Part shown: piece by piece, positions 14,972 to 38,278 of the stretch
Layout of the letters: each line of letters opens with the position of its first letter
Position numbering within the stretch: the stretch's first letter is position 1
Source of the DNA: Spirochaetales bacterium
GTDB lineage: Bacteria; Spirochaetota; Spirochaetia; Sphaerochaetales; Sphaerochaetaceae
DNA length: 39,807 nt
NCBI GenBank assembly: GCA_022788185.1
Contig: JALEVV010000086.1
Location: 1 to 39,807, forward strand
Direction: 5' to 3'
Program-made: the position numbers and the translations under genes
Notes under the pieces: model-generated
Databases searched by the model: none
The model's input: only the letters and a program-made list of their open reading frames with translations
What the model was told of the DNA's origin: nothing

Positions 14972-15606
14972 CTTCTTTCCTTCCTCTCCTCACCTACCAT
15001 TCTTGCAACGGGCAGCCTCAGATGCCAGTGCATCGCACAGAGGCGGAGCACTGTGACGAAGATCATTGTCAGCGTAAGCGTCAGCCGGGGATTGAAGTTC
15101 AGACGGGTCATCAGCACGAAGAGTGCCGCTCCGATTATCGCAGCCGAAGCATAGAAATCACTGGTGAGCACCGCAGGGACTTCCTTGGAAAACACGTCTC
15201 TCAGTACTCCTCCGCCAACTGCTCCGATGACCCCGGCGAAAATCTGACCGACCGGTCCGATTCCGGCCTGAAGTGCCTTCTGGGCACCGAGTGCCGTGAA
15301 CACTCCCAGTCCGATTGCGTCACAGATGAGAATGATGCGCCACCGTCCTACGACCCATGGGGCAATGAAGAATACGGTCGCTCCCGTTATGATGCAGGCA
15401 ATGAGGTATGAACTGTCCCGGAACGAGGCGACCGGAGTCGCTCCGATCAGGCAGTCCCTTACCATTCCTCCCGCACATCCGACAGTGATCGCGAATACAA
15501 TTACACCGAGGAAGTCCAGTCTGTTACGGACACCCTTGACCGCACCTGTAATGGCAAATATGACCGTCCCGAAAATATCCAGGAAATAGATCAGCTCGTT
15601 CTGCAT
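14968..15606 (-). CDS. TRIC/YicG-type (UPF0126) membrane protein
   Basis: I start it at the ATG at 15606 (212 residues); the frame stays open upstream but runs into the divergent gene and has no family-like sequence there. Two repeated three-helix units are seen, each with a glycine-rich loop: AGGMVRDCLIG and GGGVLRDVFSKEVPAVL, the hallmark of the bacterial TRIC/UPF0126 family (cation channels; some are called glycine transporters). There is no Shine-Dalgarno sequence. Instead TACATT sits 6 nt before the ATG, inside a copy of the 1851-2094 repeat core. First gene of the operon with the tRNA-editing and VTT genes. Confidence 0.88.
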   Translation of the reverse strand: MQNELIYFLDIFGTVIFAITGAVKGVRNRLDFLGVIVFAITVGCAGGMVRDCLIGATPVASFRDSSYLIACIITGATVFFIAPWVVGRWRIILICDAIGLGVFTALGAQKALQAGIGPVGQIFAGVIGAVGGGVLRDVFSKEVPAVLTSDFYASAAIIGAALFVLMTRLNFNPRLTLTLTMIFVTVLRLCAMHWHLRLPVARMVGEERKERR

Positions 15607-15619
15607 GGTATAAATGTAA
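15607..15619 (-). repeat. Isolated copy of the GGTATAAATGTAA repeat core at a start codon
   Basis: These 13 bases are identical to the core of the six-copy array at 1851-2094 and in the same orientation. The copy touches the ATG of the TRIC-type gene. On the minus strand it reads TTACATTTATACC-ATG, with TACATT placed as a -10 box 6 nt before the start. Confidence 0.55.
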
Positions 15620-15648
15620 TCGTTTAAAGGGGAAAAAGCCATATATCT

Positions 15649-15676
15649 TTGACTTTTTCGGAAAATCAGATATCTT
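15649..15676 (+). promoter_or_regulatory. Promoter of the coiled-coil protein gene
   Basis: TTGACT (15649-15654), a 16-bp spacer, then TATCTT (15671-15676). It is followed by GGAGG and the start codon at 15695. Confidence 0.5.
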
Positions 15677-15694
15677 TCACCGTGGAGGAAAACT

Positions 15695-16279
15695 ATGGGC
15701 AAAATCAGATCAGCATGGGAAATAGCCCTGGAAAAGACCGAGAACATACAGGTTGACAGGGAGAAACTGAAACTTGAAGAGGATATAAAGAAGGCACGCA
15801 GGGCGGCGGGAGCCTTCCTGAACGATGAGGAAAACAAGGGTGAAAGCCTTGAGGATGATCTTAATGCGATCGGAAATGATAAGGCCGTCAGGGAGGGCGT
15901 GAAGCTTACGGTGCTTCAGAACCTCACGCTGCCCCAGGACACGGTACTTACCGACCGCTATGAGCGGCTTACCGCCCTGGTAGCCCTTATTGCGGGACAG
16001 ACCTCACAGGCCGTGGAGCTGATGGGACAGATAACCGGCTTCTGCAGGCAGTATCCCGAGCACAGGAAGCAGCTCATTGATCAGCTGAAGGAGCAGTTTG
16101 CCCCGATGGCCGAACAGAAGGCAGCCCAGCTCAGGGCCCAGTACGGACAGGATGTGCCCGTGTCCCTTGAAAACGATCCGGAGTTCCTGAAGCTGGCACA
16201 GACTCAGCTGGACAGGCTCTCAAAGCAGTATAACGACACACTTGAGGGAGCAAAAGCGCAGCTGAGCACCCTATTGTGA
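15695..16279 (+). CDS. Hypothetical helical protein
   Basis: 194 residues, soluble, almost entirely predicted helix with long charged heptad-like stretches (residues 15-50 and 120-190). No catalytic motif or signal peptide is visible. I think similar proteins occur in other spirochaetes, but I cannot confirm this here. A GGAGG ribosome site and its own promoter support it as a real gene. It is divergent from the TRIC gene and about 120 bp before the sugar symporter, which has a separate promoter. Confidence 0.75.
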   Translation: MGKIRSAWEIALEKTENIQVDREKLKLEEDIKKARRAAGAFLNDEENKGESLEDDLNAIGNDKAVREGVKLTVLQNLTLPQDTVLTDRYERLTALVALIAGQTSQAVELMGQITGFCRQYPEHRKQLIDQLKEQFAPMAEQKAAQLRAQYGQDVPVSLENDPEFLKLAQTQLDRLSKQYNDTLEGAKAQLSTLL

Positions 16280-16326
16280 TGTATCAGTTATATAATCCAA
16301 AAATTTAATTCTTTTAAAGAAAACAT

Positions 16327-16383
16327 TTGACTGATATATCAGCCTCTGATACGATAGAAAGGCGACACATAGTCGCTTTCTAT
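16327..16383 (+). promoter_or_regulatory. Promoter, operator-like palindrome and leader hairpin of the sugar symporter
   Basis: TTGACT (16327-16332), 17-bp spacer, TACGAT (16350-16355). The spacer region overlaps a perfect palindrome, CTGATATATCAG (16331-16342), a likely repressor site. A hairpin starts at the end of the -10 box: ATAGAAAG-G-CGAC paired with GTCG-CTTTCTAT around an ACATA loop (16354-16383, one bulged G). GGAGG and the start codon follow. Confidence 0.5.
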
Positions 16384-16399
16384 TGTTTGAGGAGGAAAT

Positions 16400-17785
16400 A
16401 TGAACAATGAAAAAACTGTAAGGCCGTTCGGGATGCGGGACAAGCTCGGCATCACGCTCGGCGACCTCGGATGCTGCTGTACGGAGCAGTTCAGGGCAAT
16501 GTTCCTGACCGTATTCTACACCCTTGTGCTCCAGGTCAATCCGTTCCATGTGGGAACACTCATGCTCATCACCAAAATCTGGGATGCCATCAACGACCCG
16601 ATCATCGGTGCGCTCGTTGATATGAAAAAGCCCGGGAAAAAGGGTAAGTTCATCCCCTGGATCCGCGCATTCTCCTTCCCGATGGCTGTACTCTGCGTGC
16701 TCGGCTTTGTCAATGTCAGCAACCTGGATTACGGCATCAGGATCGCATACATGTTCATCACATACGTGCTCTATGAGGCACTCTACACCTGTGTGAACGT
16801 ACCCTTCGGAAGCCTTTCCAGCGTAGTCACTGATGATTCAAGGCAGAGAACGGCCCTTTCCAGATACAGAAGCCTCGGCGGAACGATCTTCATGACCGTC
16901 ATCGTTATCGCAGGTCCGCTCGTGCTCTATGACAACGCCAGAAACCCCATCCCCGGAAGATTCATGATGATGGCAAGCGTCTGTGCCCTCATCGGCTTCC
17001 TCTGCCTCCAGATCACATGTGTCTGGTGTAAGGAAAGAGTCGTTTACCATGCCCCCAAGCAGCAGAAGGTCAGCTATCTCGAAGTCATGAAGAACATTGC
17101 CCACAACAGGGCTCTGCTCGGCCTCATGCTTTTCAGCTTCTTCGGTATGGTCGGTGCCTCAATCGTAAACGGCCTCAATACATACCTCTTCCGTGACTGG
17201 TTCGGCAACATTAAGATCATGTCCGTGTCAGGCATGCTCAGCACTGTCTATGCCCTCATAGTCTTTGCCATCACCCAGCCCCTTGCCAACAAATTCGGAA
17301 AGAAGGAGTGGTGTATCTACGGCGCAGGCTTCGCCGCCGCAGTCTTCGCAGTGCTCTTCTTCTTCCCGATTCACAACCCGATTCTCTTCATCGTCATCAA
17401 CGGTATCTGCTACCTCGGTGCATCGGGCATGCAGGTTCTCATCTGGGCAATGGTTAACGATGCCATCGACTACCAGGAGCTCATGACCGGAAAGAGAAAC
17501 GAAGGTATCGTGTACTCCGCATACTCCTTCTTCAGGAAGCTTGCAAATGCCGTTTCCGGCTCCCTTTCCAGCTTCATCCTCGGCTTCATCGGTTACAATG
17601 TCGCCTCCAACCAGCAGACTGCTGAGGTAATCGGCAGGATCTGGAAGAGCTATACCGGATTCTACGTCCTCGGTTACGGCCTTGCCATCCTCATGCTCAT
17701 CGTCATCTACCCGCTCGGCAAGAAGAAGACAGAGGAAATGCTCTCTGAGCTTAAAGCAAGAAGAGCCGAAAGGGCTTCCAGATGA
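16400..17785 (+). CDS. GPH-family (MelB-like) sugar:cation symporter
   Basis: 461 residues with 12 expected membrane helices. The N-terminal GDLGCCCTEQFRAMF and the segment KIWDAINDPIIGALVDM (about 55-71), with its conserved Asp/Asn-Asp-Pro, are characteristic of the glycoside-pentoside-hexuronide family, as is the later MVNDAIDYQELMTGKRNEGIVYS. It imports a glycoside or uronide with Na+ or H+ across the inner membrane; the sugar cannot be read. TGAGGAGGAAAT precedes the ATG. It overlaps the esterase by 4 bp (ATGA), so the two are translated together. Confidence 0.9.
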   Translation: MNNEKTVRPFGMRDKLGITLGDLGCCCTEQFRAMFLTVFYTLVLQVNPFHVGTLMLITKIWDAINDPIIGALVDMKKPGKKGKFIPWIRAFSFPMAVLCVLGFVNVSNLDYGIRIAYMFITYVLYEALYTCVNVPFGSLSSVVTDDSRQRTALSRYRSLGGTIFMTVIVIAGPLVLYDNARNPIPGRFMMMASVCALIGFLCLQITCVWCKERVVYHAPKQQKVSYLEVMKNIAHNRALLGLMLFSFFGMVGASIVNGLNTYLFRDWFGNIKIMSVSGMLSTVYALIVFAITQPLANKFGKKEWCIYGAGFAAAVFAVLFFFPIHNPILFIVINGICYLGASGMQVLIWAMVNDAIDYQELMTGKRNEGIVYSAYSFFRKLANAVSGSLSSFILGFIGYNVASNQQTAEVIGRIWKSYTGFYVLGYGLAILMLIVIYPLGKKKTEEMLSELKARRAERASR

Positions 17786-18540
17786 TTACCCTTCAAACGG
17801 AATTTGCCAACAGAAAGGGAAAGATCCTCCGCGGTACCGTCACACTTCCCGGTGCCGCGGGCCCCTATCCCGTGGTGGTCAACCTTCACGGCTTCGGCGG
17901 CAGCAGGATGGGTTACAAGAGCATGCATGTCTCGATGGCCAGGGAACTGGCAGCGGCAGGCATCGCCTGTGTCCGCTATGACTTCTACGGCAATGGTGAG
18001 AGTGACGGTGAATTCGAGGAAATGACCTTCACATCCCTGCTGGAGGACAGTGAGGACATATGGGCGTGGACACTCTCCCAGAACTGGTGCGACAGAGAGC
18101 GTATGATCCTCTCAGGACAGAGTCTCGGCGGTTTCGTTGCCGCTTCAGCTGCTCCCAGAGTGAGTGAGAAGCTTCTAATTCTCATGTGCCCCGGTGCCGG
18201 AATGTGGTTCGGCTGTGCCGAGCGCAGCCGTGAGATGGAGAAGAAGGGAATCCTCTTCGGGGACATTGAAGGACTTAAGTTCTCCCACGACTTCAACTAC
18301 GACCTGGCCAGGTACAACCCGTTTGAAGATGCCAAGGGAGCTTCCGCCGAAAAGGTGCTCATAATCCGCGGCACTGCCGACAAGCTGGTGGATGACCGGA
18401 CATGCGAAACCTATCTGGCGCTATATCCTCAGGGCAGCGTCTATAAGAAAATCGAGAATGCGAATCACAATTTTGCATCGATAAATCACAGAAGGGAGCT
18501 AAATGAAACGATAGTCTCCTTCATAAAGGAAAATATCTGA
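17782..18540 (+). CDS. Alpha/beta hydrolase (esterase-like)
   Basis: 252 residues. The oxyanion region is NLHGFGGS (34-41), the nucleophile elbow is GQSLGG with Ser114, and the likely acid and base are Asp200 (GTADKLVDD) and His229 (NANHNF). The fold and length match feruloyl-esterase/acylaminoacyl-like hydrolases. With the linked symporter, a reasonable inference is deacylation of an imported acylated sugar. No signal peptide, so cytoplasmic. A terminator follows directly. Confidence 0.88.
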   Translation: MITLQTEFANRKGKILRGTVTLPGAAGPYPVVVNLHGFGGSRMGYKSMHVSMARELAAAGIACVRYDFYGNGESDGEFEEMTFTSLLEDSEDIWAWTLSQNWCDRERMILSGQSLGGFVAASAAPRVSEKLLILMCPGAGMWFGCAERSREMEKKGILFGDIEGLKFSHDFNYDLARYNPFEDAKGASAEKVLIIRGTADKLVDDRTCETYLALYPQGSVYKKIENANHNFASINHRRELNETIVSFIKENI

Positions 18541-18544
18541 TTTT

Positions 18545-18574
18545 TCAGGGAGGGCGGAAGCTCTCCCTGATTTT
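18545..18574 (+). terminator. Rho-independent terminator of the symporter-esterase operon
   Basis: TCAGGGAG (18545-18552) pairs with CTCCCTGA (18563-18570) and is followed by TTTT. Confidence 0.75.
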
Positions 18575-18606
18575 CACACTCCTTCCCCAAGTGCTATAAC
18601 CATCTC

Positions 18607-18818
18607 ATGAAAGATGGAAAAACCACACTCAGCCTCTGGCAGAGCGCTTCGATAATTACCGGCTACGGAATCGGCGGAGGCGTGATGGCCATGCCGTATC
18701 TTGCAGAAAGAACGGCTTGATCACCGCATTCGTCATCCTCACGGTGGCACTTATTTATCTGTACCTGGGATGAACCTATATGAAGATCCGTTGTTGGCAG
18801 AGCTTTATCCCAACATCC
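18607..18818 (+). pseudogene. Remnant of an amino-acid permease N-terminus, frameshifted
   Basis: From ATG 18607 the frame reads MKDGKTTLSLWQ then SASIITGYGIGGGVMAMPYL, the first-helix GYGIGGGVMAMPYLA-type motif of amino-acid permeases (AAAP/APC-like). It reaches TGA at 18718. Shifting one base after AER restores GLITAFVILTVAL, so a single base, probably an A in a short A run, has been lost. The rest of the roughly 400-residue gene is gone. No Shine-Dalgarno is present; TATAAC sits 6 nt before the ATG. The exact substrate class is uncertain. Confidence 0.75.
18770..18812 (+). repeat. Imperfect direct repeat, copy 1
   Basis: These 43 bases match 19145-19187 at 38 positions by hand count. Both begin ATGAACCTA and end GGCAGAGCTTTATCCCA. 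Both can be read as a short peptide, MNLYEDPLLAELYP here and MNLNEAPLVAELYP in copy 2. They flank the ATPase remnant. Confidence 0.7.
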
Positions 18819-18834
18819 TGTAATGCAGAAAGTT

Positions 18835-18948
18835 TTAACCAGGATTCTGTGGAACTCCAGCCCTCCTGAGCCCCGTGATCACCTTTACTATTCCATTGTC
18901 CTTCCTTTTGATAAGTTTATCTGGATATGGCCTGCGTTCGTATTCCAT
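18835..18948 (-). pseudogene. Remnant of a DUF4143-type AAA ATPase N-terminus
   Basis: From the ATG at 18948 the minus strand reads MEYERRPYPDKLIKRK then DNGIVKVITGLRRAG. This matches the start of the large AAA/DUF4143 ATPase family (Leu-Ile-x-Arg-Lys, then Lys-Val-Ile-Thr-Gly-x-Arg-Arg leading into the P-loop). The P-loop GKS is lost: after RRAG the frame gives VPQNPG and a stop. Only about 37 codons of a roughly 400-codon gene remain. Confidence 0.65.
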
Positions 18949-19144
18949 AAATGTTTCCTGCTGATGGTTTGAGGCTGCATGCATTGAGTTAAATAGGAAG
19001 AATAACACAGAACAGCGTATTTCTATTGAAATTTTTGCGGATATCCGCAGTTTTTTCAACAGAAAACCTGTACAGGGGAATCAAGGAGGGCAATCCAGGC
19101 ACGGTCCGGACGAATCCCAAAACCGGTGAGCATATATCCCTGCT

Positions 19145-19187
19145 ATGAACCTAAATGAAGCTCCTCTGGTGGCAGAGCTTTATCCCA
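19145..19187 (+). repeat. Imperfect direct repeat, copy 2
   Basis: Partner of 18770-18812, 333 bp from its end. It lies just before the terminator of the binding-protein gene. The five mismatches include two that change residues to Asn and Ala, so the copies are not a fresh duplication. Confidence 0.7.
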
Positions 19188-19216
19188 TAATACGGGAACC
19201 CTCAATGAAAGAGTGC

Positions 19217-19241
19217 AAAAAGGCCTCTCCGAAGAGAGGCC
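19217..19241 (-). terminator. Rho-independent terminator of the sugar-binding-protein gene
   Basis: On the minus strand GGCCTCTC-TTCG-GAGAGGCC is followed by TTTTT. It has a stable UUCG-type loop and lies 24 bp after the binding-protein stop codon. Confidence 0.9.
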
Positions 19242-19264
19242 AGATGTTAAGGGTTAACTGATAA

Positions 19265-20611: not shown

Positions 20612-20661
20612 TTTTACCTCCTTATGACAGACACCCCCACATGAGGATTAATCACTTTTTA

Positions 20662-20715
20662 TTAGTTCATTCAGTGAACTAACTATAGTCTACAATGCTT
20701 TTCCTGATCTGTCAA
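20662..20715 (-). promoter_or_regulatory. Promoter and ROK-type operator of the binding-protein gene
   Basis: On the minus strand TTGACA (20715-20710), a 17-bp spacer and TAGACT (20692-20687). Just downstream, 20662-20682, is a palindrome TTAGTTCA-N5-TGAACTAA. The position covers the expected transcription start, so binding would block transcription. Two related palindromes lie at the ROK/GH1 intergenic region. Confidence 0.75.
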
Positions 20716-20777
20716 ATTTTTCTTTGTAAATCTTTCAGACCAGGATGCACGTAACTAACAACTTAAACCGAAAGGAA

Positions 20778-22603: not shown

Positions 22604-22626
22604 AAAACCCTCCTTTTTTATCTATC

Positions 22627-25307: not shown

Positions 25308-25889
25308 TCATATGCCCAGCAGCAGGAAGAAGTTTGCAGCAATGTAGGTCGTCATCACTGCCATATCCGAACAGCTTCTGACACCGGTCTGCCCCAGCAC
25401 GATCATGGAATCGGAGACGATGAACAGCGCTGCCCCCACAGAGGCTGCCAGAGCCTTCGGTTCGGGGCGGAAGGAGGCGAACACGGGAACGGTCATCATC
25501 CCGAGGAGAAGGAGGTAAATTACTTCCTTTACCCCTGCCCTGCCTGATCTGACCATAAGAGTGATGAAGACCACATGGCAAAGCAGTGCCAAAGCCATTC
25601 CGATCGGAGAAAAACCCATTGAAAGGAAATATGAACCGTAAAGCAGGTGTCCGCAGGCAAAGCACAGCGCCCCTGCAGTGAGAAAGATGCTTTTCTCAGC
25701 AAACAGCATGAACACGTCACCGACAGTGTAGAAGAATGCAACGGCGATGAGTATGGGCGAAGATGCCCCCATTGCGTAAAAAAGGGATGGAATGATGAAT
25801 GGTTTCGTTATCCGCCTGAGGATCAGGCTGTCACTGGCAAGTGAGTACAGATGTAAGGCACAGACTAATGCAGAAAGAAAAATTCCCAT
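25308..25889 (-). CDS. YhhN-family (TMEM86/lysoplasmalogenase-like) membrane protein
   Basis: 193 residues, about eight hydrophobic segments. Family features: RRITKPFIIPSLFY near the N-terminus, FYTVGDVFMLF with a conserved Asp, CGHLLYGSYF, and late GAALFIVSDSMIVLG with Ser-Asp-Ser. Eukaryotic members cleave the vinyl ether of lysoplasmalogens; anaerobes make plasmalogens, which would fit, but the substrate here is inferred. No Shine-Dalgarno. TATGAT ends exactly 6 nt before the ATG (see finding on leaderless starts). Confidence 0.88.
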   Translation of the reverse strand: MGIFLSALVCALHLYSLASDSLILRRITKPFIIPSLFYAMGASSPILIAVAFFYTVGDVFMLFAEKSIFLTAGALCFACGHLLYGSYFLSMGFSPIGMALALLCHVVFITLMVRSGRAGVKEVIYLLLLGMMTVPVFASFRPEPKALAASVGAALFIVSDSMIVLGQTGVRSCSDMAVMTTYIAANFFLLLGI

Positions 25890-25895: not shown

Positions 25896-25923
25896 ATCAT
25901 ACCATGGGAACCTGAAAACACAA
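25896..25923 (-). promoter_or_regulatory. Promoter adjoining the YhhN start codon
   Basis: On the minus strand TTGTGT (25923-25918), a 16-bp spacer, TATGAT (25901-25896), then 6 nt and the ATG at 25889. Transcription would start at or within one base of the start codon. Confidence 0.55.
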
Positions 25924-25929: not shown

Positions 25930-26688
25930 TCAGTCTATGAGGATTTCCTCAAAGACATCGACCAGCGGCTGATAGTCACCGTCAATTGCGGCAATCGAGC
26001 CCTCGAGCATCCTGTCAGGATCGGCTTCGGACCACTCCACGTCGTGTCCGGCCTCTCTGATGAGTTCGTAGAAGAAGAACCTGATCACCCTGCCGTTACC
26101 TTCACGGAAGGGATGAAGGGCCTCACTTTCACCCATGTAGAATGCCAGGTCGTTGATGAAATCATCCCTGTCAGTCTGGTTCTTCAGGAAGTTGTCTGCC
26201 GAGAGCTTCTGGAAGATATCCTCAGCCATCCTCTCAATCTGATCGGGGCGGCAGAATTCCTTGCTCTTTGAGGCCTGTACGTTCCTTATCTCACCGGCGG
26301 AGGGATAAAGATCTCCGAAGAAGTTGCTGTGAAGTGCCTGTAGGTATGAGAATGAAAGGTGCATGTTCAGCGGAGATGCAAACAGCTCTGCGGTCCTGAC
26401 ATTCACAAAGAACCTCTCGGTCTGCCTGAGCAGCTCCCTGTCCCTGATGTTAAAGTAATTCACAAGACACTTGGTTCCCTCATAAAGGGACTGCTCGTCA
26501 TCCACTGCTATATAGTTGGCATCAAGCCCATTATCATCTATGTATTGTCTTATTGCCGATTCAGCGCTGATTTCCCCGCACAGTATGTCGGATAATATCG
26601 CTTCCTCACTGTCAGATAATGTAAAACCTTCCAGTTCACACGTAAACCGGATGTAGTCCATACACCGGCTGACTTCGTCATTTCTCAT
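25930..26688 (-). CDS. Fic-domain protein with N-terminal VbhA-like antitoxin domain
   Basis: 252 residues. The Fic motif HPFREGNGR is at 192-200, complete with the catalytic His and the phosphate-binding Gly-Asn-Gly-Arg. The N-terminal 55 residues resemble the separate antitoxin VbhA: the inhibitory motif [S/T]xxxE[G/N] is present as TCELEG (16-21), followed by a helical tail with CGEISAESAIRQYI. This suggests a Fic AMP-transferase kept inactive by its own N-terminal helix. Target unknown. The ATG overlaps the 3' end of the MazG-like gene by 11 bp, so both are in one transcription unit. Confidence 0.88.
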   Translation of the reverse strand: MRNDEVSRCMDYIRFTCELEGFTLSDSEEAILSDILCGEISAESAIRQYIDDNGLDANYIAVDDEQSLYEGTKCLVNYFNIRDRELLRQTERFFVNVRTAELFASPLNMHLSFSYLQALHSNFFGDLYPSAGEIRNVQASKSKEFCRPDQIERMAEDIFQKLSADNFLKNQTDRDDFINDLAFYMGESEALHPFREGNGRVIRFFFYELIREAGHDVEWSEADPDRMLEGSIAAIDGDYQPLVDVFEEILID

Positions 26689-27037
26689 CAGAACCTGCCT
26701 CTTGAGTATACGCCGTATACTTGTCTTTTTTTCCCTTTGCCTTTGAAACGGGGTACTTCACCGCATTTCTGGCGAGTTTGGAAAGAATAATGTCCTCGAC
26801 ATCATATCCCATCACGGAAGCAAAACGCAGACAGTAGATCATTATGTCCGCCAGTTCCTCCTTAAGCTCTTCAGGGTATTCCTCAACGGCTTCACTGGCT
26901 GTTCTCCACTGAAACAGCTCCAGCAGTTCACTGGCTTCCAGCGAAACGGAGATTGCAAGGTCCTTGGGGTTATGATACTGTCCCCAGTCCCTCTCCTCAG
27001 CAAACCTATCGATGGCTTTGGTGATGTCTTCGATCAT
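26678..27037 (-). CDS. MazG-like nucleotide pyrophosphohydrolase
   Basis: 119 residues from the ATG at 27037. The all-alpha NTP-pyrophosphatase fold shows WGQYHNPKDLAISVSLEASE then LLELFQW and EELADIMIYCLRFA: the paired ExxE and ExxD motifs that bind Mg2+. By family (MazG-like/RS21-C6 type) it hydrolyses dNTPs, often dCTP or damaged nucleotides. I preferred this start because a promoter's -10 box abuts the earlier ATG at 27046. No Shine-Dalgarno is visible. Its last 11 bp overlap the Fic gene. Confidence 0.85.
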   Translation of the reverse strand: MIEDITKAIDRFAEERDWGQYHNPKDLAISVSLEASELLELFQWRTASEAVEEYPEELKEELADIMIYCLRFASVMGYDVEDIILSKLARNAVKYPVSKAKGKKDKYTAYTQEAGSDEK

Positions 27038-27047: not shown

Positions 27048-27076
27048 AATATAATGGTTAATTCCCTGTACGTCAA
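27048..27076 (-). promoter_or_regulatory. Promoter of the MazG-like/Fic operon
   Basis: On the minus strand TTGACG (27076-27071), 17-bp spacer, TATATT (27053-27048). The ATG at 27046 is one base past the -10 box, the one at 27037 ten bases past it. The -35 box overlaps the T run of the neighbouring terminator. Confidence 0.65.
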
Positions 27077-28780: not shown

Positions 28781-28809
28781 TTGAGTAATAGATTTTTTTC
28801 ATATATATA
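28781..28809 (+). promoter_or_regulatory. Promoter adjoining the LOG-family start codon
   Basis: TTGAGT (28781-28786), 17-bp spacer, TATATA (28804-28809), then 6 nt and ATG at 28816. No Shine-Dalgarno fits in the gap, so the mRNA is probably leaderless. Confidence 0.6.
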
Positions 28810-28815: not shown

Positions 28816-29391
28816 ATGAACAGACTTGCTTCAGTCGCCGTATTCTGCGGCTCATCCTTCGGCAATAATCCGGTTTACAGGGAAAAGGCGGCAGAACTGG
28901 GCAGGGTCCTCGCTTCATCAGGCATAAGGCTGGTATACGGAGGCGGTTACAGGGGACTCATGGGTGTCATTGCGGAATCGGTCAGACAATCAGGAGGAAA
29001 GGTAACAGGCGTCCTCCCTAAGGTATTCGATGATCCGAGGGTGAGATTAAAGGACGTGGAGGATGAACTGATCATCGCATCAGGCATGCATGAACGCAAA
29101 AGCATGATGTATGACCGCTCCGATGCCTTCATCATATTTCCCGGCGGAATCGGGACCCTGGATGAGTTTTTCGAGATATTTACCTGGAGACAGATCGGAC
29201 TCCACGGGAAGAACATCGCCCTTTACAATATATCAGGATATTTCGACCGCCTGCTTGAATTCCTCATGGAATGCCGTGACAGGGGCTTCATGAAACAGGA
29301 AGTCCTCTCATCACTCATCGTCAGTGACGACGCTGCCGACATCATGCATCAGCTCAGGGTAAAGGAGACCCCACTGCCATCAAAAATCTGA
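28816..29391 (+). CDS. LOG-family protein (cytokinin riboside monophosphate phosphoribohydrolase-like, TIGR00730)
   Basis: 191 residues, Rossmann-like. VAVFCGSSFG (8-17) and LVYGGGYRGLMGVIAE are the nucleotide-binding start; the catalytic signature PGGIGTLDEFFE (about 114-125) and an Arg-Lys pair in MHERKSMM complete the LOG motif. The family removes ribose phosphate from N6-modified AMP or similar nucleotides; in most bacteria the physiological substrate is unknown. The stop lies within the start region of the YitT gene, so they are coupled. Confidence 0.92.
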   Translation: MNRLASVAVFCGSSFGNNPVYREKAAELGRVLASSGIRLVYGGGYRGLMGVIAESVRQSGGKVTGVLPKVFDDPRVRLKDVEDELIIASGMHERKSMMYDRSDAFIIFPGGIGTLDEFFEIFTWRQIGLHGKNIALYNISGYFDRLLEFLMECRDRGFMKQEVLSSLIVSDDAADIMHQLRVKETPLPSKI

Positions 29392-30299: not shown

Positions 30300-30324
30300 A
30301 AACCGAAAAAGGAATAAGGAGCCC

Positions 30325-30353: not shown

Positions 30354-30364
30354 GTTAAAACGTT

Positions 30365-30437: not shown

Positions 30438-30440
30438 TAT

Positions 30441-30476: not shown

Positions 30477-30483
30477 GTCCTGA

Positions 30484-31644: not shown

Positions 31645-31659
31645 GTCCAGAACCTCCTT

Positions 31660-31885: not shown

Positions 31886-32184
31886 GTCCCTCATCAATGG
31901 ATGAATATGATGCCATCGCATTCGGTTGTCCCGCAATGGGCGCAGATGAACTGTAGGAAGGTGAATTCGGACCCATGTTCACTTCATGCGAGGAAAAACT
32001 TGAGGGAAAGGAAATCGCCCTGTTCGGTTCCTATGGCTGGGGTGACGGTGAATGGATGAGAAACTGGGAGGATAACTGCAGGGCTGACGGGGCTGATCTG
32101 GCGTATGAGAGTGTCATATGCAACGAAACACCCGATGAGGAAGGCCTTTCAGCGTGCAGGCTTCTCGGTGCGGCACTTGCGTGA
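31880..32184 (+). pseudogene. C-terminal remnant of a flavodoxin, with an in-frame stop
   Basis: The plus strand reads SSMDEYDAIAFGCPAMGADEL, then TAG at 31954-31956, then EGEFGPMFTSCEEKLEGKE and IALFGSYGWGDGEWMRNWED, ending TPDEEGLSACRLLGAALA. This is the second half of a short-chain flavodoxin including the GCPAMG and GSYGWGDGEWM flavin loops. The N-terminal FMN-phosphate loop is lost, replaced at about 31880 by the LDH remnant on the other strand. Confidence 0.82.
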
Positions 32185-32230
32185 CAAGTCAAAACGGAGA
32201 GAGAATTTTCTTCCTATCTGAATCCAGATG

Positions 32231-32260
32231 AAAAATGCGGACTTTTACAGGTCCGCATTT
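32231..32260 (-). terminator. Rho-independent terminator of tRNA-Arg
   Basis: On the minus strand AAATGCGGAC and GTCCGCATTT pair around an 8-nt loop and are followed by TTC. It lies 3 nt past the tRNA. Confidence 0.85.
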
Positions 32261-32262
32261 AT

Positions 32263-32334
32263 TGTTCCCGGCGGGAATCGAACCCGCATCGAAGGCTCCG
32301 GAGGCCTACGTATTATCCATTATACTACAGGAAC
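32263..32334 (-). tRNA. tRNA-Arg (anticodon CCG)
   Basis: 72 nt on the minus strand. Acceptor stem GTTCCTG/CGGGAAC (one G-U pair) with discriminator A. The anticodon loop CTCCGGA gives CCG for CGG codons; the top pair of the anticodon stem (T-T) is mismatched, the other four pair. T arm GCGGG-TTCGATT-CCCGC. CCA is not encoded. Confidence 0.93.
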
Positions 32335-32386
32335 CGCTGGTAGGTTATTCTATCAGAGGGTTTGGTTTTTGTTAAGATGCCTTTTA

Positions 32387-32689
32387 TTACCTCACGGTTT
32401 CCAGAAGAAAGCTTACGGGTCTCACTCCGTCATTGCATGAGATGACAGCAGTATAGGGATTCTTCATCCACCCGTCGAATAAATCACCGCCGCCTGAAGC
32501 AAGGGCAAAAATATAGGGATAAAGATCATGCCAGGCACTCTGACAGAAGCCCTCAGGACAGAGTGCGTCACAGCTTATGAAAACATCGCCTTCCCTTACC
32601 GGGCAGGCATCCCTCATGGGATTCTCGTACATTGCCGCAAGATCCTCATGAAAGACCTTCTTCACGGCCGTTATCCTTACTTTTTTCAT
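32387..32689 (-). CDS. TIGR04076-family small protein
   Basis: 100 residues from the ATG at 32689; a GTG two codons earlier is also possible. KKVRITAVKKVFHEDLA, then EGDVFISCDALCPEGFCQSA and a late DGVRPVSFLLE are family features, with Cys residues spread through the chain. Function unknown; no partner is conserved that I can name. No Shine-Dalgarno: TATACT lies 8 nt before the ATG. Divergent from the DUF2974-like gene. A second family member is at 37103-37465. Confidence 0.75.
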   Translation of the reverse strand: MKKVRITAVKKVFHEDLAAMYENPMRDACPVREGDVFISCDALCPEGFCQSAWHDLYPYIFALASGGGDLFDGWMKNPYTAVISCNDGVRPVSFLLETVR

Positions 32690-32757
32690 ACTCACAGAGT
32701 ATAGTGCAGCAACAGGCCAGGATAAAGAAAAACATTTCCGTTTTGGCCGTTACCGAT

Positions 32758-32763
32758 TATATT
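32758..32763 (+). promoter_or_regulatory. -10-like box 6 nt before the DUF2974-type start
   Basis: TATATT at 32758-32763 is followed by 6 nt and ATG at 32770. There is no Shine-Dalgarno. The -35 region (TTTCCG at 17 bp) is weak. Confidence 0.45.
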
Positions 32764-32769
32764 CATGGC

Positions 32770-33828
32770 ATGACCAACATCGTCGATTACACCGGATCAT
32801 ATCTTTATACATTCAGACAGAAGGGCTTCAATGAACTTGATGCCCTTGCTCTCTCATACCTTTCATACTTCCGCTTTCCCTCACGGTTTACGGCCCTGAG
32901 GTCGAATGAAGGGATGAAGCTGAGGGATCTGAACCTTGCGGAACACTATGAGATGTATTTCAGCGGGACGTTCGATGCGAAAAGCTCGAAGGAACTGTTC
33001 CGGAACATGACTTCATCACCGCGTTACAGGGACGTTACGGTGAAATATGTGACAGAAAAGCTTGATGAGGCGAGGGAGAAGCAGTTTGCAGCCCTCTGCT
33101 TTGAGCTTGTCCCCGGCACGCTGGCAGTAAGCTTCCGGGGAACGGATGCTTCCTTCACCGGCTGGAAGGAGGACTTCAACATGTCATTCACCTTCCCCGT
33201 TCCCTCTCAGAAAGAGGCAAAGAAGTATCTTGAAAAGGTTGCGGGGGACAGCGACAGGATATATGTCATGGGGCACTCCAAGGGTGGTAACCTGGCAGTG
33301 TATGCCGCAATGATGGCAAGGGAGGACGTGAAGGCCAGGATTAAGAGAATCTATTCACTGGACGGCCCGGGTTTCCCCGGGGAAGTGCTGAAGGGCAGTG
33401 AATTCAGGAGCATATCGTCAAGACTTGTGAAGATAGTACCCCAGTCCTCGATAATAGGACTGCTTCTGAAAAATCCGGATAGACTGAAGATCGTGAAGAG
33501 TTCATCCATCTCCCTCTTCCAGCATGATCCATATACCTGGCTCGTGGAGGACAATTCCTTTAAGGAAGCCTCAAAGCTTTCACCCGAGGCCCTGCGATTC
33601 AACAGGAAGATCGATGCGGCACTCTCCACAATGGAAAGTGATGAAAGAAGGAAGTTCGTCGACACGCTCTTTGAAATCGTATGTTCCACGGGAGCCGCCG
33701 ACACCGATGACTTCTTCAAGCATTTACCCAAAACCCTTCCCTCATCACTTTTGGCCTACTCCAGACTCAGTGATGAGAAGAAGGATCTGATGAAGCAGGC
33801 ATTTTCGGCCATGAGAACCCTTAAGTGA
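32770..33828 (+). CDS. DUF2974 (Mbeg1-like) alpha/beta hydrolase
   Basis: 352 residues from ATG 32770; the frame is open upstream to 32632 but that part overlaps the divergent gene and lacks family sequence. MTNIVDYTGSYLYTFRQKGF and NELDALALSYLSYF are the N-terminal DUF2974 block. AVSFRGTDASFTGWKEDFN and the nucleophile elbow MGHSKGGNLAVYAA (Ser170) indicate a lipase-like fold. No signal peptide, so cytoplasmic. The substrate is unknown. The 3' end overlaps the convergent chromate-transporter gene by 8 bp. Confidence 0.85.
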   Translation: MTNIVDYTGSYLYTFRQKGFNELDALALSYLSYFRFPSRFTALRSNEGMKLRDLNLAEHYEMYFSGTFDAKSSKELFRNMTSSPRYRDVTVKYVTEKLDEAREKQFAALCFELVPGTLAVSFRGTDASFTGWKEDFNMSFTFPVPSQKEAKKYLEKVAGDSDRIYVMGHSKGGNLAVYAAMMAREDVKARIKRIYSLDGPGFPGEVLKGSEFRSISSRLVKIVPQSSIIGLLLKNPDRLKIVKSSSISLFQHDPYTWLVEDNSFKEASKLSPEALRFNRKIDAALSTMESDERRKFVDTLFEIVCSTGAADTDDFFKHLPKTLPSSLLAYSRLSDEKKDLMKQAFSAMRTLK

Positions 33829-34426
33829 AGGAAAAGACTATGCCGACAACTGCCGATGCTGCTATGAAGATGATCGGGTGAAGGCCCTTGGTCTTCTTCA
33901 CCTTATTCGTAAGTATCCATAATATTACGGCCAGGATGATGCCCTTGATGTTCACTGCCTCAATGCACCAGCCCGCAGTCCTTATAACCTCCTCATAAAA
34001 GAGGTTTGCGACGGCAACGGTAATTCCTGCCGCTGCGATCAGGGCTGCCGAGGTGGGTCTGAGTCCATAGAAGGCACTGTTAACATACTTATTGTCCCTG
34101 AAGCTCTTGAGGAAGGAAGCTATTATGAGGATGACTATTATCGATGGAGCGACAAGTCCCAGGGAGGCCACTGCGGCTCCGAGGACTGCAGTCGGGATTC
34201 CCGCCACATCCATTCCGGTCACGTAACCGACATAGGTTGCCATGTTGACCCCGATGGGCCCGGGAGTGGACTCGCTTACCGCGATCATGTTGAAAAGGTC
34301 TGCCTGCGTGAACCATCCGGTCCGAGCCGAAATGTCATAGAGGAAGGGAATGGTGGCCATACCGCCGCCGACGGCAAAGAGTCCGACCTTGAAGAATTCA
34401 TAGAAAAGCCTGAAAAAGAGCATCAT
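33821..34426 (-). CDS. Chromate transporter half (CHR family), second of a pair
   Basis: 201 residues with five or six hydrophobic segments. The CHR signature is clear: FKVGLFAVGGGMATIPFLYD, then SESTPGPIGVNMATYVGY. It is a short-chain CHR protein that works with the partner half upstream as a heterodimer. Chromate efflux is the founding activity; many members have unknown substrates. Start overlaps the partner's stop by 4 bp with GGGGAGGG upstream. Last gene of the seven-gene operon. Confidence 0.92.
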   Translation of the reverse strand: MMLFFRLFYEFFKVGLFAVGGGMATIPFLYDISARTGWFTQADLFNMIAVSESTPGPIGVNMATYVGYVTGMDVAGIPTAVLGAAVASLGLVAPSIIVILIIASFLKSFRDNKYVNSAFYGLRPTSAALIAAAGITVAVANLFYEEVIRTAGWCIEAVNIKGIILAVILWILTNKVKKTKGLHPIIFIAASAVVGIVFSFT

Positions 34427-34965
34427 TTTCCCTCCCCCTTAAAATTCTGTATCACGATTCCGAGAACGGCCGCAATGATGACGAAAATGACGGGATTGAG
34501 CGACGTGAAGTATGCCAGCGACATGACGGCGATGAATATTACAAGCGTTGCCTTATCGACGATGGCCTTTCTGAAAAGCTTAATGACCGCATTGAGGATG
34601 AGGACGCAGACACAGATCCTGATGCCTGCAAAGGCCTTCTGGACCACGGCCAGGTGGGAGAAGGTCTCAATCACACCGGCAAGGAGCGTTATTATGAGAA
34701 AGGACGGGAAGACAAGCCCGAGCGTCGCTATGATTCCACCGGCAACCCCGCCCTGCTTCTGTCCGATCATGGTGGCAGTGTTCACCGCTATGATTCCAGG
34801 CGTGCACTGCCCGATGGCAAAGTAATCCATTATTTCCTCATCGGTCGCCCACTTTTTCTTCTGGACGACCTCCCGCTGGAGGATCGGGAGCATTGCATAT
34901 CCGCCCCCGAAGGTCATCACGCCCATTCTGGCGAAAGTAACGAATAAGTCAGCATATAAATTCAT
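34423..34965 (-). CDS. Chromate transporter half (CHR family), first of a pair
   Basis: 180 residues, five or six hydrophobic segments. MGVMTFGGGYAMLPILQREV and GQCTPGIIAVNTATMIGQ repeat the CHR motif found in the partner, consistent with the two halves facing opposite ways. It overlaps the DUF5131-like gene stop by 4 bp and the next half by 4 bp. Confidence 0.92.
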   Translation of the reverse strand: MNLYADLFVTFARMGVMTFGGGYAMLPILQREVVQKKKWATDEEIMDYFAIGQCTPGIIAVNTATMIGQKQGGVAGGIIATLGLVFPSFLIITLLAGVIETFSHLAVVQKAFAGIRICVCVLILNAVIKLFRKAIVDKATLVIFIAVMSLAYFTSLNPVIFVIIAAVLGIVIQNFKGEGK

Positions 34966-35732
34966 GAAAACAATTCTGAGGTATTTGAGCTTTCTTTTCC
35001 AGTAGGAAAGAGCACTCTTTCACTCTCATAGTCGATGCCTGCCTTTCCCGCCTGAGATGCGAGGATGGATGTCCTGAGTCTGTAGGACACGCCGTCCTTC
35101 ACGAAGTTGGTCGCACACTGCCTGAAAATAAAGGAAACATCGTGCCTTACGCACTGATCCCTGATATCCAGGACCCAGGAGTAGTCCATCACCCTTCCAT
35201 CCGTATCGGCTTCCCCTCCGACAGTCACAAAATCGATTTCAGGAAGATACCTTTCCAGATCGACAGGACCCACCAGCGGCTGTGCCGTGATCCCCCTGTG
35301 CTTTATGGGAAGGGATGTGAAAATGCCAAGACGTTCATCGGCTGTACGCTGGTCCTCAATGGTGCAGCATACATAGACGTTGTCATATCCGTCGCCCCAG
35401 TCGGGAGGAAGGCACTTCTCAAACCTCGTGATGCGCTTGGTGAGAAAGAGAAAGGAACAGTCCTGACGTTCCCTTATCATCTTCCACGCCTCACCTCTCC
35501 AGCCATCTGCCTCCTCAATGAGGAAATCAGAGGAGAAGCAGAGCCAGACGAGACCCGGCTTCATTTTATATTCCCCATTCCGTTTCCTCTCCACGGGACG
35601 GTAAAACTGCGGAGTTCTCGTGATGACGGAAGTATCGACACCTCGTTTCGCATCACCCTTATGGATGTAGCAGTGAAGGCATCCGGTGCTGCACTTCCGG
35701 CATCCCCTCCAGGGATTCCAGAGGGAAGGCAT
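34962..35732 (-). CDS. DUF5131-family (phage gp37/gp68-like) protein, radical-SAM-like
   Basis: 256 residues from ATG 35732; a TTG directly before it is also in frame. WNPWRGCRKCSTGCLHCYI (6-24) has four cysteines (12, 15, 19, 22), where the family normally reads WNPxxGC...GCxxCY, so an iron-sulfur centre is likely. FLFLTKRITRFEKCLP and VYVCCTIEDQRTADERL are further family blocks, and FVTVGGEADTDGRVMDYSWVLDIRDQC closes it. Members occur in phages and bacteria; the reaction is unknown. The start shares one base with the YoaP stop (TGATG). Confidence 0.85.
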   Translation of the reverse strand: MPSLWNPWRGCRKCSTGCLHCYIHKGDAKRGVDTSVITRTPQFYRPVERKRNGEYKMKPGLVWLCFSSDFLIEEADGWRGEAWKMIRERQDCSFLFLTKRITRFEKCLPPDWGDGYDNVYVCCTIEDQRTADERLGIFTSLPIKHRGITAQPLVGPVDLERYLPEIDFVTVGGEADTDGRVMDYSWVLDIRDQCVRHDVSFIFRQCATNFVKDGVSYRLRTSILASQAGKAGIDYESERVLFPTGKESSNTSELFS

Positions 35733-36475
35733 CAAAGGTAATCCTTCAGAAGCTTTTCCGCTTTCTTTTCGTTAAGAATCTCATGGGTGATGAGCCTTCC
35801 GTCCTTAAAGAGGCTGAAGGTGGTCCAGACTGCGGGAGATGACAGGGCATCCTCATGGGATTCAATCTTCCTGACCTTAAGCTCCACACCCCTGTCCCGG
35901 AAGAACTTCACTGTCTCGGGGACATATTCCGCCGTGTACGGACATGCATCGCTGTATACCAGCAGAAAACCCTTCCCCTCATCATGCCGGTGCTCAAATG
36001 AGGGTTTCGGAGCATCAGGAGCGAAGGGAAGATACAGTAGGTCAAAGTACGGTGCTGCCCTATCCGCAACTGAAAATCCATGCTTTTTCAGGAAAGCCGG
36101 ATCGGAAAGAAACGGTTTCTTTCTCTCCGATGAGATGCACGTAAGCCCGCAGAAACCTTTCTCACGCGCATCCCTGATGCACGCTTCAAGCAGTTCTGAT
36201 CCATAACCATGTCCCTTCAGAGAGCCCGATACCCAGAAGCATGAGACGTGCATATAGCCGGGTGCGCTGACGGGAAAAAGGGATACATCGGCGGGAAGAT
36301 ACTCGATGAAGCACTTTCCCCGGGCATCGGCTTTGAGGAACACAAGTCCCCTGTCCATCATATTTCCGAGGTAAGACTTCTTCGTCACGACCTTCACGTC
36401 ATCATCCTTTGCGATCGCACAGCATATGTGCTCCTTACGGATATTATCATGAGTCAGCTTAACGTAATCCACCAC
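35732..36475 (-). CDS. GNAT acetyltransferase with YoaP-like C-terminal domain
   Basis: 247 residues starting at a GTG with GGAGG upstream. The N-terminal GNAT domain (1-150) has the acetyl-CoA loop GSLKGHGYGSELLEACI. The C-terminal half (about 160-245) begins with DACPYTAEYVPETVKFFRDR, a thioredoxin-like YoaP domain with one Cys-Pro. Substrate unknown. It overlaps the GyrI-like gene by 17 bp and the DUF5131 gene by one base. Confidence 0.85.
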   Translation of the reverse strand: MVDYVKLTHDNIRKEHICCAIAKDDDVKVVTKKSYLGNMMDRGLVFLKADARGKCFIEYLPADVSLFPVSAPGYMHVSCFWVSGSLKGHGYGSELLEACIRDAREKGFCGLTCISSERKKPFLSDPAFLKKHGFSVADRAAPYFDLLYLPFAPDAPKPSFEHRHDEGKGFLLVYSDACPYTAEYVPETVKFFRDRGVELKVRKIESHEDALSSPAVWTTFSLFKDGRLITHEILNEKKAEKLLKDYL

Positions 36476-37103
36476 GCCTCCTGACAGGGTGCCTTATGAC
36501 GGTCCTTAGCTTTTCCGGTGCGCATTTTCTGGGATCCGACAGATAGATCTCGTGGTGAAGCCTTATAGGCGAAAAATCCAGCTCATAGCCGTTTTCAAGG
36601 GCAAAGTCATCCATAACCTTCACCGTGGCAGGCTCATCATCAAAAGCTCCCACATGCATGATCTGAACACAGAGCCCCTCATCGGCAGTGAGAAGCTCTG
36701 CCTTCGAGACATCAATGTTCTTTTTCCTTTCAGCTTCCCTTACCGCCCACTGAAACACATCCTCTGTGACAAAATCAGGCACCCTGATCATCGAAATCCA
36801 GTGAAATTCATCCTTGCGGGAGTAATCGACGCCGGAAATCCCCTCCTGATACCACAGTCCCTCAAGTGGAGGAACGACATATTCGAAGTACCCCTCGATC
36901 ATGTGGCCTCCCTTAGGACTCATCTTAATTGTGTATGCAAGCGCATAGAGAAGTCCGACTGCCTTTTTGTAGTCCCCTTCCTCATCATTGGGGTTTCCGA
37001 ATCCCCTTACCGCAAGATACTTCATCGGAGGCACGGTCACAATGCCCGGCTTTCCGGAAGGAAGGTAGAATTCCTTATATTCCTTTTTGAAGTCAAATGC
37101 CAT
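36459..37103 (-). CDS. GyrI-like small-molecule-binding protein
   Basis: 214 residues, soluble. The pattern IVTVPPMKYLAVRGFGNPND, FEYVVPPLEGLWYQ and ELLTADEGLCVQIMHVGAFD matches the GyrI/SHS2-type ligand-binding fold used in drug-sensing regulators; the conserved late Glu region is present. There is no DNA-binding domain, so it is a stand-alone binder or hydrolase. GGGGAGAATG precedes the ATG. It follows the TIGR04076-like gene with one shared base. Confidence 0.85.
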   Translation of the reverse strand: MAFDFKKEYKEFYLPSGKPGIVTVPPMKYLAVRGFGNPNDEEGDYKKAVGLLYALAYTIKMSPKGGHMIEGYFEYVVPPLEGLWYQEGISGVDYSRKDEFHWISMIRVPDFVTEDVFQWAVREAERKKNIDVSKAELLTADEGLCVQIMHVGAFDDEPATVKVMDDFALENGYELDFSPIRLHHEIYLSDPRKCAPEKLRTVIRHPVRRRGGLR

Positions 37104-37465
37104 TATTCATTCTCCCCTGTATGGTAAAACCCTCCCGTATGGAAGTTCTCATTGCCAAGGCTTTCCGCCTTAAGGTGGAACAGCACGCACCCGTCGGGGC
37201 ACACCAGATCCTTCTCATACGCAGAAGATCCTCCCACCTTCGTAAGGTCACCTCCGCTTCTTACCGCTTCCATGATGGGATAGAGCATCATCATTGTCTT
37301 GGAGCATATGCCGTATCCCTGATTGTTGACCGGACAGCCGTATGTGCACTTATACACATCCCCCACCTCCTCACCGTTACGGCAGTAATGTTCGGTCTTA
37401 CTTCCCCGCAGGAATCCCGTAACGGTAACGGTGAATTCATACTCCTCGTCATACCACTTTTTCAT
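37103..37465 (-). CDS. TIGR04076-family protein, second copy
   Basis: 120 residues, Cys-rich. MKKWYDEEYEFTVTVTGFLR, then KCTYGCPVNNQGYGICSKTM and CPDGCVLFHLKAES, with seven Cys placed as pairs that could bind a metal. Function unknown. GAGGAGG precedes the ATG. It starts 4 bp before the WYL regulator ends. The 32387-32689 protein shares the family plan but few identical positions. Confidence 0.75.
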   Translation of the reverse strand: MKKWYDEEYEFTVTVTGFLRGSKTEHYCRNGEEVGDVYKCTYGCPVNNQGYGICSKTMMMLYPIMEAVRSGGDLTKVGGSSAYEKDLVCPDGCVLFHLKAESLGNENFHTGGFYHTGENE

Positions 37466-38232
37466 GGATCCTCCTCATAGACAGACAGAATCTCAGCTGC
37501 CCTCTGCTTTATAAGATTAACAAGATGTTCAGGGCCCAGAACCTTCACCTGACGGCCGAAGGTAAGCATCCAGCTAAGGATCCCTTCCTCGTCGGAAAGC
37601 TCCGGATAGGGGACAATGCGGGGAGTAAACACTTCACCCTGAAGGGGAGATGTCATTCTTGATAGCTTGAAAAGCCTGAAGTCCTCCCTCACCCGGCACC
37701 AGGCCCAGAGGTACCAGCTGCTCCAGCGGAATACCAGATAGTATGGCTCCACGCACCTCTCGCTTTCCCCCTTCGGGGATGAGTAGGTGAAGGTCACGCA
37801 CCTTCGTGCGGCTATGGAACGCTCGATCAGGGAGATCTTCCTCACTGTCTCCTCGCCGCCCCACGACCTCAGGTCTATGAGCATGTGACCGCTTCCGGAG
37901 AGGTATGAAGATGAGCCCTCCTCCAGCTTTTCCATAAGCAGGGTGTACGATTCATCACCGGTTGCCGAGGCCAGACCTCTCAGGGCAGAGAGCATCATCC
38001 CGGTCTCCTTTTCCGAGAGCAGTGCATGATCAAGGGTGAAGCCCTCCATCAGGCTTACACCTCCGCCATGCCCCTGCATTGTCCGCACGGGTATACCTGC
38101 CATCGAAAGCGCTTCAATGTCGCGGAGGACAGTACGCCTCGACACCTCGAAAAGCCTTGCCAGCTCTGCAGTGCTGATATTCTTTCTCTTCAGCAGCACC
38201 GCTGCCATTCCCATGAGTCTTTCTGTCTTCAC
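37462..38232 (-). CDS. YafY-like transcriptional regulator with HTH and WYL domains
   Basis: 256 residues from a GTG at 38232, chosen because YafY proteins begin at this point (VKTERLMGMAAVLLKRKNIS) and because TATACT lies 6 nt before it; an ATG at 38250 is the alternative. Residues 1-55 are a winged helix (TAELARLFEVSRRTVLRDIE). The WYL domain follows (about 120-200) with PYYLVFRWSSWYLWAWC, where WYL is present as WYLWAW. WYL domains sense ligands such as nucleic acids or metabolites. First gene of the seven-gene operon; a palindrome overlaps its promoter. Confidence 0.9.
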   Translation of the reverse strand: MKTERLMGMAAVLLKRKNISTAELARLFEVSRRTVLRDIEALSMAGIPVRTMQGHGGGVSLMEGFTLDHALLSEKETGMMLSALRGLASATGDESYTLLMEKLEEGSSSYLSGSGHMLIDLRSWGGEETVRKISLIERSIAARRCVTFTYSSPKGESERCVEPYYLVFRWSSWYLWAWCRVREDFRLFKLSRMTSPLQGEVFTPRIVPYPELSDEEGILSWMLTFGRQVKVLGPEHLVNLIKQRAAEILSVYEEDP

Positions 38233-38238
38233 ATGGGA

Positions 38239-38278
38239 AGTATAAGGCATAAAACATGACTTCTGTGTGTCATGTTTT
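38239..38278 (-). promoter_or_regulatory. Promoter and palindromic operator of the WYL operon
   Basis: A perfect inverted repeat AAAACATGAC-N8-GTCATGTTTT (38251-38278) covers the spacer and -35 region of a minus-strand promoter with TATACT at 38244-38239. It includes the stop codon of the upstream hydrolase. A self-regulatory site for the WYL protein is the simplest reading. Confidence 0.6.

Follow-up and report, generated by a model that had tools for sequence, protein, structure and literature searches.

The window considered here is a stretch of 39,807 nucleotides from contig JALEVV010000086.1 of the Spirochaetales bacterium assembly GCA_022788185.1 (C80 among the 90 contigs of a draft genome of 2,266,925 bases). 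Several genes in this window lack a Shine-Dalgarno (SD) site and carry a -10 box of the form TAnnnT a few nucleotides before the start codon. About 8% of the genes of this organism, and about 15% of its first genes, are probably leaderless, with a predicted sigma-70 promoter abutting the start codon; the probability of this reading is put at roughly 93%. The arrangement exceeds its controls in the genome, recurs in five families of the class, and is conserved among relatives at two window genes, encoding a LOG-family protein and a TRIC-like membrane protein. An earlier inspection of the window, referred to below as the sequence-only reading, had proposed leaderless genes at eight places, and its central idea finds strong support in the results described here.

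The genome sample comprised the first 20 kb at most of contigs C1 to C60 together with the window, 959,902 bases (about 960 kb) with a G+C content of about 50%. Genes were called with a self-trained coding model that placed starts by coding potential and codon type alone and was blind to upstream motifs. This yielded 771 genes with 60 nt of upstream sequence, among them 408 first genes, taken to head a transcription unit because they are divergent or because over 40 nt separate them from the co-directional gene before them. An SD site was defined as AGGA, GGAG or GAGG at about -20 to -4, and is absent from 240 of the first genes and present in 168. Spacing denotes the number of nucleotides between the end of the -10 box and the start codon, and the leaderless signal is TAnnnT at spacing 6 to 8.

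At spacings 0 to 12, TAnnnT occurs 0, 7, 4, 4, 3, 6, 33, 31, 15, 6, 13, 5 and 4 times before the 240 first genes without an SD site. The sequence-only reading had proposed a scan for -10 boxes close to such starts; in the sample, 78 of the 240 genes have TAnnnT at 6 to 8, while ten decoy bins of equal width hold 6 to 22, and the SD first genes have 1, 2 and 0 at spacings 6, 7 and 8 (3 of 168). The spacing, which had been described as exactly 6, thus spans 6 to 8 across the genome. After subtraction of the decoys, an excess of 62.5 genes remains (95% interval 48–78), corresponding to 8.1% of the 771 genes (6.2–10.1) and 15.3% of the first genes. The true share is probably higher, because the count overlooks boxes that lack the final T and is diluted by misplaced starts.

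The peak persists when starts are chosen by the longest-open-reading-frame or longest-ATG rule, and is absent, beyond codon periodicity, at 5,739 internal in-frame ATGs. Expectation maximisation (EM) without a preset motif on the 240 genes recovered ATAATG at a gap of 5–6, equivalent to TATAAT at 6–7, with a log ratio of 104 against 30–42 in six shuffles, which were run with fewer restarts. In the whole genome, TATAAT-N6-ATG has 30 matches (26 distinct strings) and the reversed pattern 10. Around all ATGs of the sample, the strict TATAAT peaks at spacings 6 and 7 (15 and 11).

Further evidence comes from features that played no part in the selection, examined in 140 leaderless candidates pooled over seven groups. 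TTG stands at spacer 17 upstream of the box in 47 of these candidates, the other spacers from 10 to 29 holding 0 to 7 each. A pyrimidine occupies position -1 in 128 of the 140, compared with 466 of 877 SD genes (P 3e-20), 186 of 342 other first genes without an SD site, and 47 of 88 such genes in which TAnnnT occurs only further upstream. ATG is the start codon in 137 of 140 candidates and in 792 of 877 SD genes (P 0.002). The spacer of 17, the pyrimidine at -1 and the near-exclusive use of ATG are explained if the +1 of the promoter is the A of AUG. Several of the top candidates are textbook promoters, such as TTGACA-17-TATCAT-7-ATG before a LonB-like protease. The signal is also depleted inside operons, with raw shares of 53/196 in divergent genes and 16/313 in closely spaced co-directional genes. 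Among 76 leaderless candidates, the 20 top-ranked were scanned for protein families; they represent a mix of enzymes, regulators and proteases, with one lacking a match, and the match begins at residue 10 or earlier in 11 of the 20. The scored promoter model, which supports no count, served just to rank these scanned candidates and to print the window sites, as it was trained partly on genes that it scored, the window genes being excluded from training.

Leaderless translation relies on recognition of a 5'-terminal AUG by 70S ribosomes or by the 30S subunit with initiation factor 2 (30S-IF2). In the proposed mechanism, a standard sigma-70 promoter (TTGNNN, 17 bp, TANNNT) would be placed close enough to the gene for RNA polymerase to start on the A of AUG. 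Initiation would take place at a pyrimidine-adenine step 7–9 bases downstream of the -10 box, and a few bases earlier in some genes. The resulting mRNA, lacking an SD site, would then be translated through its 5'-terminal AUG by either ribosomal route, and the remaining genes would largely use SD initiation.

In the window, the sites and genes concerned are as follows.

28781..28786, plus strand: -35 box TTGAGT of LOG, spacer 17
28804..28809, plus strand: -10 box TATATA of LOG, 6 nt before ATG, no final T
28816..29391, plus strand: LOG-family protein (TIGR00730, E 7e-56), leaderless candidate
15636-15641, minus strand: weak -35-like TGGCTT of TRIC
15613..15618, minus strand: -10 box TACATT of TRIC, 6 nt before ATG
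14968..15606, minus strand: glycine transporter/TRIC-like membrane protein (PF03458, Pfam E 3e-42), leaderless candidate
25918..25923, minus strand: -35 box TTGTGT of YhhN, spacer 16
25896..25901, minus strand: -10 box TATGAT of YhhN, 6 nt before ATG
25308..25889, minus strand: YhhN family protein (PF07947, Pfam E 5e-18), leaderless candidate
32735-32740, plus strand: weak -35-like TTTCCG of the DUF2974 gene
32758..32763, plus strand: -10 box TATATT of the DUF2974 gene, 6 nt before ATG
32770..33828, plus strand: Mbeg1-like alpha/beta hydrolase (PF11187, the DUF2974 of the sequence-only reading; Pfam E 4e-79), leaderless candidate
32721-32726, minus strand: -35-like TTTATC of TIGR04076
32698..32703, minus strand: -10 box TATACT of TIGR04076, 8 nt before ATG, a spacing within the genome-wide peak
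32387..32689, minus strand: TIGR04076 protein (NCBIfam E 3e-24), leaderless candidate
27071..27076, minus strand: -35 box TTGACG of the MazG-like gene, spacer 17
27048..27053, minus strand: -10 box TATATT of the MazG-like gene, 10 nt before ATG, suggesting a leader no longer than a few nt
26678..27037, minus strand: MazG-like protein (PF12643, Pfam E 4e-18), near-leaderless candidate
38239..38244, minus strand: box TATACT of the WYL regulator, 6 nt before GTG, no -35 match
37462..38232, minus strand: WYL-domain regulator (HTH_11 and WYL, Pfam), GTG start, weak leaderless candidate
18573-18578, plus strand: TTCACA of the permease remnant, spacer 16
18595..18600, plus strand: box TATAAC of the permease remnant, 6 nt before ATG 18607, no final T

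All eight boxes, spacings and start codons were found where the sequence-only reading had placed them (six at spacing 6, TIGR04076 at 8, MazG-like at 10), as were the -35 boxes of YhhN, LOG and MazG-like at 16–17 bp, and none of the eight starts shows an SD match of at least 4 bases. Of the six boxes at spacing 6, described as TAnnnT-like, four fit TAnnnT strictly; those of LOG and the permease lack the final T. The remark that obvious GGAG-type sites are present in most genes is just roughly right: they stand at 18 of 38 motif-blind starts and, in several other genes, at an alternative start. TAnnnT at spacing 6 occurs at 3 of the 38 starts, where about 0.7 would be expected from decoy bins (Poisson P ~0.03). 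Taken alone, the window is weak evidence, and it is the genome sample that decides.

Nor are the eight cases equals. LOG and TRIC are very likely leaderless. LOG residues 6–181 align to positions 2–176 of the TIGR00730 model, and its start is therefore well placed, while the register of its -10 box is ambiguous because the box sits within a TATATATATT run. For TRIC, the motif-blind start is the same as that of the sequence-only reading. YhhN, DUF2974 and TIGR04076 are likely leaderless; the blind caller chose a later start for YhhN, at 25772, and residues 1–99 of TIGR04076 align to model positions 1–89, so that its start is well placed. The MazG-like gene, having a good promoter at 10 nt, is judged to be near-leaderless. 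The WYL regulator is doubtful as a leaderless gene, given its GTG start, the missing -35 match and the state of its relatives described below; the blind caller chose ATG 38214, 6 codons into the frame. The permease case is weak as well, being a remnant of 37 codons behind a box without the final T. This remnant, the decayed permease of the sequence-only reading, had no family match in Pfam or NCBIfam scans, and its promoter may survive.

Within and after the decayed permease region lie two 67-nt copies, 78% alike (18757-18823 and 19132-19198), as would be left by the duplication and subsequent loss of a short piece of a gene. At 1848-2095, beside a tRNA-Gly gene, an AT-rich 21-mer (ATTTAAGGTATAAATGTAAAT and variants) is repeated six times at irregular spacing, and a 13-nt part of it recurs at the TRIC start (15607-15619). 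This array was considered as a source of the TRIC box and rejected, as the 21-mer occurs within 4 substitutions at its own six places only in the 960-kb sample. Beside a tRNA-Arg gene, a 69-codon open reading frame (31975-32184) matches flavodoxin models at positions 76–139 of 142 only, and is apparently what remains of a broken flavodoxin gene, because its match is limited to the end of the model.

For four of the window genes, upstream regions were compared across the family, with decoy spacings and the WYL result as controls. By the LOG protein, the nearest named relatives are three Spirochaetales metagenome genomes (57–58% identity), one of them labelled roe-deer rumen, and the LOG protein of Candidatus Ornithospirochaeta stercoravium is 52% identical to that of the window. 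LOG was matched in 34 of 61 family genomes, and 30 loci were retained, including the window's own. TAnnnT at 6–8 precedes 23 of these 30 (nine decoy bins hold 0–6), the window's own not being among the 23, and a pyrimidine stands at -1 in 26. TTG occurs 17 times at spacers 17–19 in the LOG regions of the family; in those with TAnnnT at 6–8, spacer 17 accounts for 10 occurrences and spacer 18 for 6. Outside the family, 29 LOG upstream regions were inspected by eye, and most look operon-internal or SD-bearing. TRIC was matched in 35 of 61 genomes, of which 30 were kept and 29 are unique, own included; the box stands at 6–8 in 21 of the 29 (decoys 0–3), with TTG at 17 in 12. For YhhN, 25 of 30 loci were re-found and 14 dropped for an unclear N-terminus; the box is present in 4 of 10 unique regions (own included), always at spacing 6, and an SD site in 4. 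The WYL comparison started from 30 loci including paralogues, with 25 re-found, 2 dropped and 22 unique regions; the GTG of the window gene was left unscored because ATG starts were preferred. LOG and TRIC keep the leaderless arrangement family-wide, whereas WYL does not.

The peak recurs in five families. The leaderless share is 6.1% in the genus pool and 4.4–9.9% in four further families of the same class; the intervals are wide. With five families sampled, this recurrence suggests that the mode of gene start is found across the class. The peak is also present in families f2 and f4 (L246-L255), whose G+C contents are 62% and 70%. There, five TAnnnT boxes each occur at spacing 6–7 among 21 and 17 first genes without an SD site, over a low background. 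Both families are good places for studying the leaderless signal.

Three alternative explanations were considered. Transcription could begin a few bases upstream of the AUG, leaving short real leaders whose SD-independent translation is helped by the 5'-proximal position of the start codon or by ribosomal protein S1. Boxes at 9 and 10 nt do have TTG at spacer 17 (5/14 and 7/20), the MazG-like gene being such a case, and in the available part of the Leptospira study introduced below (PMC5243855) many starts lie within 10 nt instead of at 0. The sharp lower edge of the peak (6 of 240 at 5 nt, 33 of 240 at 6 nt) and the pyrimidine exactly at -1 speak against this explanation, both suggesting that most genes have their +1 on the A of AUG; as a general account, short leaders are unlikely. 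Still less probable is that the boxes are promoters of mis-started genes, translated from a later in-frame start with a leader of its own. The later starts chosen by the blind caller for YhhN and WYL, the latter with an ATG 6 codons on, fit this idea. It is at odds with the models that align from the first residues for TIGR04076 (1 to 1), LOG (6 to 2) and 11 of the 20 scanned candidates, and with the near-exclusive ATG at starts that were picked without upstream information. Chance or composition, whereby TAnnnT arises by accident in AT-rich DNA before a gene or in a U-rich stretch bound by S1 and the best cases are picked from about 38 genes, could account for the P of ~0.03 in the window and for two imperfect boxes among six. 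Such an origin is scarcely credible when the equal-width decoy bins reach 22 against 78, when a -35 box exactly at 17 bp and a -1 pyrimidine are unexpected from composition, and when the peak also appears at 62% and 70% G+C.

Several observations weigh against a leaderless origin of these starts. Neither an SD site nor a leaderless signal is found in 162 of the 408 first genes. EM gave every gene a site (mixing weight 1.00), gaps 5–7 holding about one third of the positional weight, and around every ATG of the sample, taken without gene calls, the degenerate TAnnnT shows no clear peak. No 16S end could be located in the assembly, which probably lacks that part of the rRNA, and thus the anti-SD was not read from this genome. 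In the wider family pool, the excess is just 3.2% of genes (interval 1.0–5.5), and the pyrimidine excess of that pool alone is not significant (11/14 vs 91/158). Among WYL relatives, TAnnnT at 6–8 precedes 3 of 22 and an SD site 9. Leaderless genes with a same-start relative in the sampled stretches share their state with it in 2 of 8 cases within the genus, 0 of 3 within the wider family and 1 of 3 beyond the family, none of which is significant. These mixed conservation results mark the leaderless state as labile overall, with some genes holding on to it. In the available part of a 2017 survey of non-SD genes (PMC5397173), six spirochaetes average -3.25 on the component linked to the -10 box. 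Finally, the point of transcription initiation, the mode of translation and every single start site are deduced from DNA.

A further arrangement concerns divergent genes. The sample holds 98 divergent pairs, of which 10 are leaderless on both sides, about 7 being expected from 27% on each. The median distance between starts is 61 bp for these pairs and 181 bp for 13 SD pairs. At 47–74 bp, a cut-off set after the distances were known and with two pairs at -2 bp excluded, 8 of the 16 divergent pairs have leaderless signals in both directions, compared with 2 of 80 further apart (Fisher P 4e-6). Three pairs with leaderless-type boxes on both sides serve as examples.

L027:1226-1272: divergent pair, 47 bp between starts, both boxes TATCAT
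L027:15521-15574: divergent pair, 54 bp between starts
L038:1837-1883: divergent pair, 47 bp between starts

In the window, the divergent pair of TIGR04076 and DUF2974, with 80 bp between starts, is a looser example. If a -35 box stands at 17 bp on each side, the promoters of the two genes would overlap and take up all of the DNA between the starts. It is conceivable, though rather doubtful, that leaderless starts let divergent genes pack back to back over overlapping sigma-70 promoters (47–71 bp) which admit one polymerase at a time, forming a recurring leader-free bidirectional switch; the mutual exclusion of the two genes is a guess. The poor -35 boxes of the two 47-bp pairs count against such a switch. 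Bidirectional promoters, in which divergent starts arise from one short DNA stretch, are familiar from bacteria. The pairs described here share this layout and differ in that genes with leaderless signals point both ways, with 47–71 bp between their start codons.

With these results, an established way of starting genes is extended to a spirochaete lineage that has been little studied. Gene finders that expect an SD site may misplace leaderless starts, and that of YhhN was misplaced by the blind caller, which works without upstream signals. LOG and TRIC would be good models for why leaderlessness persists in some genes and changes in others, and natural minimal promoters are offered by the compact divergent pairs.

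The sequence-only reading had implied that the signature was new to spirochaetes, which is not supported: the leaderless mode is already known in bacteria, other spirochaetes included. A survey from 2011 (BMC Genomics 12:361, PMC3160421) predicted the same signature in what it calls TA-led genes, with TANNNT some 12 bp ahead of the start codon. In its available part, 6 of 18 spirochaete genomes carry the signature, at a mean of 3.9% of genes (1.8–6.9), and the means for Deinococcus-Thermus and Actinobacteria are 39.4% and 19.2%. In Leptospira interrogans, a differential RNA sequencing study from 2017 (PMC5243855) reports, in the part available, a primary start at most 10 bp from the start codon for 430–450 genes, and exactly at it for 184 and 170 genes (30 and 37 °C). 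A 2023 paper on the Borrelia ribosome (PMC10618245, likewise available in part) describes leaderless transcripts as frequent in Borrelia. A literature search found no paper joining leaderless genes with Sphaerochaeta, and for leaderless mRNA and Treponema a toxin-antitoxin review only. What is added here to a kind already known is the spirochaete lineage itself, clean evidence for a -35/-10 pair, conservation of the arrangement at LOG and TRIC, and the divergent pairs with their short spacing.

The closest counterpart is the TA-led gene of the 2011 survey (PMC3160421), with which the genes described here share a TANNNT box whose first T lies about 12 bp before the start codon. The share of 8.1%, obtained by another method, is near the spirochaete maximum given in the available part of that survey, in which no member of this lineage is named. 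The present analysis differs from the survey in testing the -35 box, the -1 pyrimidine and conservation. Leptospira interrogans belongs to the same phylum, and its starts were measured, whereas here they are predicted; from what is available of that report (PMC5243855), motif discovery recovered only sigma-54 elements, in contrast to the clean -35/-10 pair found here. In Deinococcus and Mycobacterium, as cited in the accessible parts of PMC3160421, PMC5243855 and PMC9581028, leaderless genes are likewise mixed with SD genes and carry TAnnnT near the start codon, but these genera belong to other phyla and have a larger leaderless share than the spirochaete described here.

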